Shown: one piece after another, positions 24,355 through 27,507 of the stretch
How the letters are laid out: every line of letters starts with the position of its first letter
Position numbering within the stretch: the stretch's first letter is position 1
DNA from: Variovorax beijingensis
GTDB lineage: Bacteria > Pseudomonadota > Gammaproteobacteria > Burkholderiales > Burkholderiaceae_C
DNA: 64,000 nucleotides
Assembly: GCF_007828835.1 (NCBI RefSeq)
Contig: NZ_VIVL01000001.1
Location: forward strand, 620,001-684,000
Direction of reading: 5' to 3'
The notes under the pieces: generated by a model
Databases searched by the model: none
Seen by the model: the letters and a program-made list of their open reading frames with translations, nothing else
What the model was told of the DNA's origin: nothing
Program-made: the position numbers and the translations under genes

Positions 24355-25431
24355 ATGCGCTTCATCTTCAAGACCAGCTACGACCAGGACATCCGCCTCG
24401 CCAAGCACGGCGGCCATGTGTTCTGGTACGGCCTGCTCGCCGCGTTCCTCGTCGCCGCGCCCTGGGCGATCGACGAGTACTGGCTCGCGCAGCTGACCTT
24501 CGTGCTGATCTACGGCATCGTCGGGCTGGGCCTGATGCTGCTGGCGGGCTTCACGGGGCAGTTCTCGATCGGGCATGCGGCCTTCCTTGGCGCGGGAGCC
24601 TACACGCAAGGGGTGCTGACCAACCTGGGCGTGCCGTTTCCGATTGCGCTGCTCGCGGCCGCGGCGCTGTCGGCGGCAGTGGGCGTGGTGGTCGCGCTGC
24701 CGGCCCTGCGCGTGAAGGGCATCTACCTGGGCATCGCCACGCTGTCGTTCGGCTTCATCGTCGAGGAAGTGTTCGCGCGCTGGGAGAGCGTGACGGGCGG
24801 CAACGCGGGGCTGCATGTGAAGCCGCCGCAGTTGTTCGGCTGGTCGCTCGGGTCGGGCAATGGCTTCTACTTCCTGTGCCTGGTGGTGGCGGTGCTCAGC
24901 ACGCTCGGCATCCTGAACCTGCTGCGTTCGCCGACCGGCCGCGCCTTCGTGGCGATCCGCGATTCGGAAATCTCGGCGCAGAGCATGGGCATTCACCTGG
25001 CGCGCTACAAGACGATGTCGTTCGCGATCTCGGCCGCGCTCGCGGGCCTGGGCGGCGCGCTGTATGCGCACAAGCTGAGCTTCATCTCGCCCGACCAGTT
25101 CAACATCCTGCAGTCGATCGACCTGCTGCTGATGGTGGTGATCGGCGGCCTGGGCTCGGTGCATGGCGCGTTCCTGGGCGCGATTTTCCTGATCGCGATG
25201 CCGCAGCTGATCTCGATGGGCAAGGACTGGCTGCCGGCCGTGATCGGGCAGGCGCCGGGTCTGCAGGGGCTGGTGTACGGGCTGGTGCTGATCGCCTTCG
25301 TGCTGTTCGAGCCGCTGGGGCTGTATGGCCGCTGGCTCAAGATCCGCACCTGGCTGCAGCTCTTTCCGTTCTACCGCAAGGGGTTGTTCAAGCGGCAGAA
25401 ATCCTTCACAAAGTCGGACCGCCTTAGATGA
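24355..25431 (+). CDS. livM: Branched-chain amino acid-type ABC permease (LivM)
   Basis: A 358-residue membrane permease, partner of LivH. Characteristic segments are [40 protein letters not shown] and [20 protein letters not shown]. The C-terminal tail is basic. The start follows directly on a hairpin repeat, with no evident Shine-Dalgarno sequence between repeat and ATG. Its stop overlaps the livG start by 4 bp (ATGA). Confidence 0.9.
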
Positions 25432-26252
25432 CGAGCAGCGGCGACATCCTTCTTTCGGCCAGGGACCTGAGCGTGCGCTTCGGCGGCGTGCTCGCGGTCA
25501 ACAAGGTGAGCTTCGACGTGCGGCGCGGCGAGGTGTTCACGCTGATCGGACCGAACGGCGCGGGCAAGACGACGGTGTTCAACCTGATCAGTCGGATCTA
25601 CACGCCGACCATGGGCGAGATCACGTGGCATGGCGGGGCGGCCGGGCCGCTGGCGCTGACACATCAGGCGCCGCACGCGATTGCGGCACTCGGCATTGCA
25701 CGCACCTTCCAGAACATCGAACTCTTCGAGCATGCGACGGTGCTGCACAACCTGCTGATCGGCCGCCACACGCATCGGCAGACGGGGTTCTGGAGCGAGG
25801 TGTTCTTCACGCCGGCCACGCGGCGCGCGGAAATTGCGGCACGCGAGAAGGTGGAGCAGGTGATCGATCTGCTGGATTTGCAGCATCACCGCGATTCGAT
25901 GGTGGCCGGCTTGCCGTACGGCGTGCGCAAGGTGGTGGAGCTCGCGCGTGCGCTGTGCACCGAGCCCAAGCTGCTGCTGCTCGATGAGCCATCGTCCGGG
26001 CTCAACGTCGAAGAGACGGCGGACATGGCGTTCTGGATCCAGGACATCCAGCATGAGCTGGGGGTGTCGGTGCTGATGGTCGAGCACGACATGTCCTTGG
26101 TGTCGAAGGTGTCGGACCGCGTGCTCGCGATGAACATGGGCGAGGTGCTGGCTACCGGCACGCCGCGCGAGGTGCAGGCGGATGCGCGTGTCATCGAGGC
26201 TTATCTCGGGACTGTGGATGACGTGAGCAGCTTGAGGAGGGTTGGGGCGTGA
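25428..26252 (+). CDS. livG: Branched-chain amino acid-type ABC ATPase (LivG)
   Basis: A 274-residue ATP-binding subunit. Walker A is GPNGAGKTT, the family insert [20 protein letters not shown] follows, Walker B is [12 protein letters not shown], and [12 protein letters not shown] holds the H-loop. The signature loop is [16 protein letters not shown] rather than LSGGQ, as is usual for this subfamily. It is coupled to livM by overlap and followed by a 481-bp non-coding gap before livF. Confidence 0.92.
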
Positions 26253-26280
26253 ATGTTCTGTTCGCCGCTTCGTTGGCGGC

Positions 26281-26465
26281 GCCCGGTATGCGGTGCGGCG
26301 CGGTCGCCCCCACTATGCCGGCCCTTCGGGCTCCCTTCCGGTGCTCGCTTTCCGCGGGGTCTCGCCCAAACTCGCTTCGCTCAAACAAGGGCGAGCCCTT
26401 ATCCGCGGAAAGCTGCGCTCCTCAGCGGCACAGAGGGGGCGCCCACCCCGCACCGCACACCGGGC
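26281..26465 (+). repeat. Structured 185-bp element E1 (nested inverted repeats)
   Basis: Terminal arms 26281-26298 and 26448-26465 pair over 18 positions with one mismatch, then 26305-26311 pairs with 26435-26441. The core has an 11-bp perfect stem GCTTTCCGCGG (26347-26357) with CCGCGGAAAGC (26403-26413) and an inner stem CTCGCCC (26361-26367) with GGGCGAG (26389-26395) around an AACTCGCTTCGCTCAAAC loop. Element E2, read on the minus strand, has the same loop and junctions but different, still perfectly paired stems. It starts 28 bp after livG. Confidence 0.8.
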
Positions 26466-26500
26466 TCGGTCGGAGGTGGAACCACCCTGAGCGTGTCCAC

Positions 26501-26684
26501 GGCGTTGGGGCCCCTGCCCCGGGCGGGCCGTTGAGGCGCCGCCGAGCAGCGGAGCGACAAGCGGATCAGGGCTCGCAGCTGTTTGAGCGAAGCGAGTTCT
26601 GCGAGACCCCGCTTGTCGCGAGCAGCGCAGGGAAGCCCGAAGGGCCGGTGACGTCGGCCGGCCCGGGGCAGGGGCCCCAACGCC
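26501..26684 (-). repeat. Structured 184-bp element E2, inverted relative of E1
   Basis: Perfect 24-bp terminal inverted repeats (26501-26524 and 26661-26684) enclose a core whose stems are GCGACAAGCGG (26554-26564) with CCGCTTGTCGC (26609-26619) and CTCGCAG (26572-26578) with CTGCGAG (26599-26605). The loop carries GAGCGAAGCGAG, the complement of the E1 loop. Relative to E1, five outer-stem and two inner-stem base pairs are replaced with pairing kept. It ends 49 bp before livF. Confidence 0.8.
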
Positions 26685-26733
26685 GCTCCCCGTTCTTGTC
26701 AAACGATCGAGCAAATCCTCAAGGGACAACGAA

Positions 26734-27507
26734 GTGACCGACGTCGTCCTCCAACTACTCAACGTCGAAAGCGCCTACGGCCCCATCAAGGCCATCCGCG
26801 GCGTGAGCCTGAAAGTCAGGCAAGGCGAGATCGTGACCGTGCTGGGCTCCAACGGCGCAGGCAAGACGACGATCCTCAAAACGATCTCGGGAATCATCGA
26901 CCCGAGAAAGGGCAGCATCGAGTTCCAGGGCAGGGACATCACTGCCAAGGACCCGGCCTACATCGTGCAGCAGGGCCTGAGCCATGTGCCCGAAGGCCGC
27001 GAGGTGTTCCCGCTGCTGTCCGTGAAGGACAACCTGCTGATGGGCGCCTACACCCGCAAGGACCGCGACGGCGTGGCGCGCGACATGGAGAGCGTCTACA
27101 CCTACTTCCCCATCCTGCGCGAAAGAGCCGCGCAGGATGCCGGCCTGCTCTCGGGCGGCCAGCAGCAGATGCTCGCCATTTCGCGCGCCATCATGGCCGC
27201 GCCGCATCTGATCCTGCTCGACGAGCCCAGCCTCGGTCTCAGCCCCAAGCTGACGAAGGAGATCTTTGAGATCGTCGTGCGCATCAACCGCGAGCGCGGC
27301 ACCACCATCCTGCTCGTGGAGCAGAACGCCAACATGGCGCTCAACGCTTCCGACCACGGCTACGTGCTCGAGAACGGCCGCATCGTCATGGAAGATACCT
27401 GCGAACGCCTGCGCGAAAAGGAGGACATCAAGGAGTTCTACCTCGGCGTCAAGGACGACGGCGTGCGCGGCGAGCGGCGCTGGAAAAAGAAGAAGACCTG
27501 GAGATGA
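26734..27507 (+). CDS. livF: Branched-chain amino acid-type ABC ATPase (LivF)
   Basis: A 257-residue ATP-binding subunit. Walker A is GSNGAGKTT, GLSHVPEGREVFPLLSVKDN is the LivF-typical region, the signature is LSGGQQQMLAI, Walker B is LILLDEPSLGLSP, and TILLVEQNANMAL follows. The C-terminus has an extra basic tail (RGERRWKKKKTWR). GTG is the start, with AAGGGA upstream. It is separated from livG by the E1/E2 elements rather than overlapping it. Confidence 0.92.
   Translation: MTDVVLQLLNVESAYGPIKAIRGVSLKVRQGEIVTVLGSNGAGKTTILKTISGIIDPRKGSIEFQGRDITAKDPAYIVQQGLSHVPEGREVFPLLSVKDNLLMGAYTRKDRDGVARDMESVYTYFPILRERAAQDAGLLSGGQQQMLAISRAIMAAPHLILLDEPSLGLSPKLTKEIFEIVVRINRERGTTILLVEQNANMALNASDHGYVLENGRIVMEDTCERLREKEDIKEFYLGVKDDGVRGERRWKKKKTWR

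Follow-up and report, generated by a model that had tools for sequence, protein, structure and literature searches.

A palindromic repeat family with a conserved loop and covarying stems in the livG-livF gap of Variovorax beijingensis

Introduction

MITEs and foldback elements are non-coding and carry terminal inverted repeats. The elements described here are likewise non-coding, have terminal inverted repeats and display a presence/absence pattern at an orthologous site, but they differ in that neither a target duplication nor a parent transposon was found (Y1_Tnp alone was sought) and in that the arms are unshared between their two forms. REP/BIME repeats (the GTAG and CGTC superfamilies, with RAYT/TIRYT transposases) are described, in the passages of PMC3733652 that concern them, as interspersed, intergenic, multi-copy palindromes of several phyla, with stems of varying sequence and opposite-orientation dimers that fold apart or together and are rarely found between divergent genes; our family resembles them in all these respects. 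REPs, however, are given in the same passages as 20-40 bp long, bearing a GTAG or CGTC tag that stays unpaired and, in most families, short loops, whereas the present family measures about 185-600 bp and has an 18-base cross-phylum loop, side mini-hairpins and a pseudoknot module.

On the scale of single hairpins, GNA or GNNA loops with G-C pairs form stable DNA mini-hairpins, d(GCGAAGC) among them, and the pertinent part of PMC4686876 treats these as isolated short fragments. The family described here holds GCGAAGC in its loop and C-GNA-G in its side hairpins, but as parts of a large repeat. Flavo-1 (Rfam RF01705) is presented in the portions of PMC2864571 and PMC9723704 that deal with it as an RNA of Bacteroidetes whose function is not known, and its hits fall indistinctly sense or antisense of transcribed regions, many of them outside such regions (PMC9723704, same portion).

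Here we analyse two elements that lie between livG and livF of Variovorax beijingensis, in a window (the whole stretch of DNA that was analysed) of 64,000 nucleotides, following up an original prediction that had been made from the letters of this window.

Results

Two inverted elements with the same layout

The livG-livF gap (26253-26733) holds two short-form elements side by side (Table 1). Each has terminal arms and a small side hairpin; its outer stem (11 bp) and inner stem (7 bp) are separated by an internal bulge, and the loop has 18 bases. The two are inverted relatives of each other (61 nt at 80%; 48 nt at 81%). The original prediction had placed the elements, their stems, their loops and their paired arms correctly. 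On the loop strand, the outer stems read GCTTTCCGCGG and GCGACAAGCGG, with five consecutive pairs different and all of them paired, and the inner stems read CTCGCCC and CTCGCAG, with two pairs different, which bears out the predicted change of seven pairs without loss of pairing. The GCGAAGC that had been noticed in the loop on one strand is on the plus strand in element 2 and on the minus strand in element 1. The terminal arms are paired, as had been claimed, and are less strictly conserved. When the two strands of each core were folded as single-stranded DNA, z-scores ranged from -3.4 to -5.5 against shuffles, and the GCGAAGC strand formed the more stable fold in both cores (-23.8 versus -21.7 and -24.4 versus -21.5 kcal/mol). 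The initial observation is sound and more significant than it was first stated to be.

Table 1 Features of the livG-livF region, in window positions
Feature	Position	Strand	Remarks
livG-like ABC ATPase, upstream	25428-26252	+	from the original prediction and the liv-type order of open reading frames
Element 1, short form, one core	26281-26465	-	folded GTTTGAGCGAAGCGAGTT strand is minus, antisense to the operon
Element 1 left arm	26281-26320		pairs with right arm 26426-26465, 85% complementary
Element 1 side mini-hairpin	26320-26331	-	C-TTC-G on plus, C-GAA-G on minus
Element 1 outer stem, 11 bp	26347-26357 / 26403-26413		
Element 1 inner stem, 7 bp	26361-26367 / 26389-26395		
Element 1 loop	26369-26386	-	AACTCGCTTCGCTCAAAC on plus; GCGAAGC on minus at 26374-26380
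Element 1 right arm	26426-26465		partner of 26281-26320
Element 2, short form, one core	26501-26684	+	folded strand is plus; inverted relative to element 1
Element 2 arms	about 26500-26530 / 26655-26685		97% complementary
Element 2 outer stem	26554-26564 / 26609-26619		
Element 2 inner stem	26572-26578 / 26599-26605		
Element 2 loop GTTTGAGCGAAGCGAGTT	26581-26598	+	GCGAAGC at 26587-26593
Element 2 side mini-hairpin	26635-26645	+	C-GAA-G on plus
livF-like ABC ATPase, downstream	26734-27507	+	

Occupancy of the livG-livF junction

We compared 30 livG-livF loci of the same genus, the best 30 of the 50 genomes with a match. Ten contain two elements and nine contain one; four (L198, L200, L201, L216) are empty, with livG and livF sharing ATGA, and two are nearly empty (L191, L196). 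The remaining five are a truncated element (L195), coreless arms (L215), a second element that lacks its core (L210), a locus that ends at the contig end (L199) and L203, in which the same junction is occupied by an unrelated palindromic insert (CCCCTTCCGGGGGAAGG ... CCCCCGGAAGGGGAGGG). Because livG and livF share ATGA in four relatives, we consider the elements to be an insertion that splits an otherwise overlapping gene pair, as had been proposed. On the livG/livF tree, the three states none, one and two require nine changes when L199, L203 and L215 are scored as none and L195 and L210 as one. Between species the gap changes in length and its blocks are swapped, and filled and empty sites differ by more than the element, so that no clean target-duplication junction can be drawn. 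Open frames of 162 codons (plus strand, 26249-26737) and 149 codons (minus strand, 26313-26762) run across the gap.

The orthologous copies of element 2 record how its outer stem has changed, from GACAAGC/GCTTGTC through GACAGGC/GCCTGTC to GACGGGC/GCCCGTC, and each of the two intermediates (L192, L197) carries one G.T on the folded strand. A CTTTCCGC core type, on the other hand, occurs at four separate places of the host tree (L188, L192, L208, L210) together with a matching side hairpin, inner stem and right junction, e.g. in L192 beside its sister L189, and we therefore conclude that whole cores have been swapped. This type is absent from the other cores of the V. beijingensis genome, where no donor was found. 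Compensation, as originally read from the two elements, is thus stepwise in the outer stem of element 2, and part of the difference between copies is whole-core replacement.

The internal-loop flanks resemble direct repeats, and exactly one core is missing both from L215 and from the second element of L210. The idea that hairpins insert into the loops of other hairpins is a conjecture, as the same data would follow from deletion between short direct repeats. A longer loop variant, AACTCGCTCCACTGCGTTGCGCTCAAAC or a near form, looks like an added tiny hairpin in L190, L193, L197 (element 2) and L015.

Relative to the operon, the folded strand runs antisense both in element 1 and in each of the nine relatives that have one full element; in two further short-form loci of the V. 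beijingensis genome, L007 and L012, it runs sense. All three short-form loci of this genome (L003, which is the window site, L007 and L012) lie in branched-chain-type ABC transporter operons, the latter two in an ATPase-ATPase gap (PF00005 with PF12399, then PF00005) and in a permease/binding-protein gap.

A multi-copy family with head-on pairs of cores

A covariance model built from 25 cores found 16 cores in the V. beijingensis genome, the window's two among them, arranged as seven inverted pairs and two single copies; the loop itself occurs at 15 places at one mismatch or fewer. The copies come in two forms: a short form, measuring 185 and 184 bp in the window, whose single core is flanked by plain arms, and a long form of about 600 bp that is almost wholly self-complementary and has two cores. 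Terminal inverted repeats, which MITEs carry, are present in the window elements, and the arms are not common to copies of different form. Across the genus, 56 of 61 genomes have copies, from 0 to 34 each, at E <= 1e-4 and with stricter filters that lose weak matches. The suspicion of a structured repeat family is supported. Plasmid records gave one match per element, in Variovorax paradoxus CP063167.

Among distinct neighbouring cores no more than 700 bp apart, taken over all loci, the arrangement was (+,-) in 61 cases, (-,-) in three (L074, L269, L340), (+,+) in one (L235) and (-,+) in none. Neighbouring cores on opposite strands are always head-on, and therefore either exposed DNA strand shows one core the right way round. 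Both neighbouring genes could be called in 30 of 48 clusters by a GC-by-codon-position heuristic, which gave 20 codirectional, eight convergent and two divergent sites, with at least one divergent call wrong (L279, which is a livG-livF site). A called frame spans the core in two of the 48 clusters (L088, L093).

The stems covary

In the 25 cores, six of the eleven outer-helix pairs have changed on both sides, a number no higher than in shuffled alignments (5.3), and the double-changed cells amount to 48 versus 16.4 after shuffling. In 144 model matches (111 distinct rows from 92 loci), all 20 pairs are doubly changed, with 549 double-changed cells versus 146.8 shuffled, and the covariation score is 0.653 versus 0.150 shuffled and at most 0.14 in slid versions; this alignment was fitted to the structure, which favours covariation. 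Eight per cent of its cells are not standard pairs. The claim that the fold is kept is upheld by these counts. Homologues with uncompensated stem mutations had been named as what would speak against it, and such copies do exist, since one subfamily (GATTCCGGCGGG/CCCGCCTCCATC; L001-, L005-, L076+, L124+) has the outer half of its outer stem unpaired; overall, the stems covary.

The loop occurs in several phyla

The original prediction had proposed a search of Comamonadaceae, a scope that proved too narrow. A scan of one genome per species for the exact 18-mer returned at least 117 stretches, 80 of them named, with groups assigned from record titles; the matches listed include Bacteroidota, Bacillota, CPR, Pseudomonadota and others. 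Where the flanks sufficed for scoring, the loop caps a stem scoring at least 5 in 74 of 104 distinct occurrences, versus 1.9% with swapped flanks: 20/27 in Bacteroidota, 11/16 in Bacillota, 13/16 in Burkholderiales, 2/6 in other Gammaproteobacteria, 2/3 in CPR, 3/3 in delta-type, 0/1 in cyanobacterial-type, 2/3 in unnamed and 21/29 in unlisted records. The stems capped in the different phyla are unrelated to one another. Several of the 30 non-capping occurrences resemble hairpins that are bulged next to the loop (L075, L111, L112), and others show no hairpin (L133, L162, L178).

The loop is also repeated within genomes. In eight genomes, chosen because they hold the loop, a degenerate pattern gave 116 matches, from 1 to 35 each, and its backward version gave none. 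The distribution is patchy: exact loops occur in 10 of 274 genomes of the class, our own included, and the degenerate pattern matches in six of 148 genomes of a Bacteroidota sample centred on G342, a genome chosen for having the loop; that sample, with its centre, contains 17 matches, ten of them in G342, versus one for the control. For the exact loop the backward-pattern control is not independent, because AACTCGCT and TCGCTCAA together form a mirror repeat.

A phage origin was considered and rejected: of 54 IMG/VR stretches with the 18-mer, 47 fall into two sequence groups (39 L016-type and eight L022-type) whose architecture is different from that of the elements. At least four of the other seven are hairpins of 6-10 bp (L017, L024, L025, L038).

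GNA mini-hairpins and a second module

In other families of the class, the parts follow one another in the same order, i.e. arm, side hairpin, TGCG-like segment, outer stem, inner stem and loop. Among 46 distinct junctions, which were found by a pattern and come from related loci, 41 have a side hairpin whose stem is 4 bp or longer and whose loop has three bases, the loop size to which the search was confined. Its triloop is TNC closed by C-G in 41 of 41 (N is T in 27, G in eight, A in five and C in one), i.e. C-GNA-G on the other strand, versus TNC in 93 of 1624 background hairpins with three-base loops. The centre of the 18-base loop reads T-N-C in 255 of 268 distinct cores (T 244, G 8, A 3), with the T fixed by the search pattern, and the other cores comprise three with a centre of four bases, GNNA when read on the opposite strand, and ten with longer inserts.

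A second module was found with a loose pattern 28-204 bases outside the loop in 28 occurrences, of which L133 looks like chance; the window's two short forms are without it. Its parts are a pyrimidine/purine hairpin, a short turn and an A-rich linker, together with a segment whose bases complement those of the hairpin loop (CTTGAT/ATCAAG, CTTGAA/TTCAAG, CTTGAC/GTCAAG, TCGCC/GGCGA). In 64 distinct hairpins of this type, at least four complementary bases are present in 48 and at least five in 23, versus 31% and 10% when partners are swapped. In all 16 asymmetric cases the linker is a mirror image of the purine arm, as it is in all 26 cases of a broader search that overlaps the first; there are no direct copies. 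On the folded strand, this has the apparent layout of an H-type pseudoknot in which a pyrimidine third strand would run parallel to the purine arm. The predicted triplex is a sequence pattern, and its cases, coming from related loci, are dependent on one another. The arrangement may resemble that of telomerase RNA.

Mismatches suggest one folded strand

Mismatches were counted on the loop strand of the fitted alignment, in sequences that are related and events that are not independent. There, TC/CT outnumber GA/AG by 65 to 8 and AC/CA outnumber GT/TG by 72 to 27; the same two classes stand at 30 versus 3 and 9 versus 5 over 100 distinct inner stems and at 10 versus 2 and 8 versus 3 outside Burkholderiales-type loci. 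On the other strand, the mismatches in excess are the better tolerated G.A and G.T pairs. By column of the fitted alignment, the first excess is 10 versus 2 and the second only 8 versus 5, for which reason the G.T excess is weak. The mismatches point to one folded strand. Where the original prediction left the choice between RNA and extruded DNA, the data favour, short of proof, one single strand, probably of DNA. Considering (i) the orientation of the cores, (ii) their GNA loops and (iii) the record of Flavo-1 described below, we prefer DNA over RNA with moderate confidence.

Flavo-1 adjoins cores in Flavobacterium caeni

The window stretch has no Rfam match up to E 1. Rfam searches of 18 and 17 further loci gave no match at the core, and the only match near a core was Flavo-1, which in both L104 and L144 occupies the outward side of the core, on the folded strand. 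The genome of L104, that of Flavobacterium caeni (G334), has at least 133 Flavo-1 matches and 11 cores; beside nine of these cores, a Flavo-1 on the folded strand lies no more than 300 bp outward, and the other two have none among the matches listed. Many of the Flavo-1 copies listed for this 3.7-Mb genome form outward (-,+) pairs about 750-900 bp apart. The number and pairing of Flavo-1 in F. caeni suit a repeat better than an sRNA. Like the family, Flavo-1 has conserved segments that enclose a stem of variable length and, in F. caeni, it adjoins cores on the folded strand; it differs in that the window elements do not match it and in that some of its copies stand alone (L287, L288).

With no Rfam match at the window elements and no description found in the literature, the suggestion of an undescribed family stands. 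Searches with the loop and linker strings returned no relevant paper, in a collection with few subscription journals and preprints; the 92 families of PMC2267715 were considered through its abstract and selected passages.

No coupling to a Y1_Tnp transposase

The V. beijingensis genome has one Y1_Tnp (PF01797), RAYT-like gene (C2:299354-299683), and 58 of 61 genus genomes have the domain, nearly every genome having a single such gene. The loop, at three mismatches or fewer, is found at none of nine Y1_Tnp loci within about 1.5 kb on each side (L187, L316-L323), and eight of the nine have GGGGTCAGA or a near form nearby, which fits the TIR motif GGGGWSAS of another repeat class in the relevant passage of PMC3733652. 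One 99% complete genome (G035) has six cores and no Y1_Tnp, and three that are at least 99% complete (G024, G026, G036) have Y1_Tnp and no cores. With no locus flanked by an element and presence uncoupled from cores, a RAYT as mobiliser is unsupported. Judged as REPs, the elements form opposite-orientation dimers (61 in (+,-) arrangement), their size is outside the REP range, a linked flanking RAYT is lacking (0/9), and no GTAG or CGTC tags were noticed by eye in the copies inspected. In its way of life the family resembles REPs, but it does not qualify as one by size or by linked transposase.

Discussion

Since distant bacteria keep the loop letter for letter and the stems change but stay paired, it appears that these elements preserve the fold of one strand. 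On balance, and by a little, we lean towards regarding the elements as copies of a REP-like, non-autonomous mobile palindrome that is read as folded single-stranded DNA. In such a scheme, the strand reading GTTTGAGCGAAGCGAGTT would fold once single-stranded, some enzyme would recognise it by its shape and loop and then copy or move it, recombination would spread and swap cores, and insertion would be tolerated between genes that are not divergently transcribed. Covariation, the cross-phylum loop, copy number, head-on pairs, the GNA rule, the strand asymmetry of mismatches together with the more stable single-stranded DNA fold of that strand, and presence/absence and core exchange at livG-livF all count for this reading. 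Against it count the lack of a mobiliser or target duplication among our findings and the subfamily with a broken outer stem, and mobility is read from a presence/absence pattern that loss and recombination could also give. Furthermore, the pyrimidine third strand of the pseudoknot and the G.U-type mismatches would suit RNA, and it is unlikely, though worth weighing, that the elements are a structured non-coding RNA family in which the folded strand is transcribed and the core hairpin, the triplex pseudoknot and a Flavo-1-like end module act in the cell. Such a family would account for a strand-specific fold, the apparent pseudoknot, the G.T on the folded strand in both one-sided intermediates of element 2 and the filing of Flavo-1 in Rfam as an sRNA on the same strand, but the folded strands of a head-on pair lie opposite each other, the orientation relative to the operon varies, GNA triloops are described for DNA, and Flavo-1 itself is sense or antisense and often outside transcribed regions in the part of PMC9723704 that treats it.

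Two further explanations were weighed. A benefit to the host, with the element serving e.g. as an mRNA stabiliser, attenuator or terminator between operon genes, is suggested by the codirectional majority of sites (20 of 30, with eight convergent and two divergent by heuristic calls of which at least one divergent is wrong) and by the branched-chain-type operons around all three short-form loci; we consider it distinctly improbable, as close relatives have the same operon without the element, copy number varies from 0 to 34 and distribution is patchy (10 of 274 class genomes, six of 148 in the Bacteroidota sample). Templated repair of quasi-palindromes by template switching could keep the arms of old, inert elements complementary without selection on the fold, and copies do differ from one another by blocks of several pairs at a time and exchange whole cores. 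It leaves unexplained the cross-phylum 18-base loop, the GNA rule, the strand asymmetry and the mirror linker, the last of which counts against it because arm-copying would not make a mirror linker, and we give this explanation very little credence.

Going further, we raise tentatively, as a possibility that may well prove wrong, that Bacteroidota, Bacillota, CPR and Pseudomonadota share one ancient or horizontally spread superfamily of modular folded single-stranded DNA elements. Its modules would be the loop-18 core with GNA side hairpins, the triplex pseudoknot and end modules such as Flavo-1; a widespread enzyme would read conserved loops and shape while the stems vary freely, and one Rfam 'RNA' family at least would be a piece of this superfamily. 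If this is true, a repeat architecture of several phyla is still unnamed, because sequence searches see only unrelated stems, and Flavo-1 would be recast as part of a repeat. The elements would then be a natural case of selection on the fold of one exposed chromosomal DNA strand, a fold that includes DNA mini-hairpins and a predicted triplex pseudoknot, and the loop, the strand and the partner module would provide direct handles for finding the enzyme that reads them.
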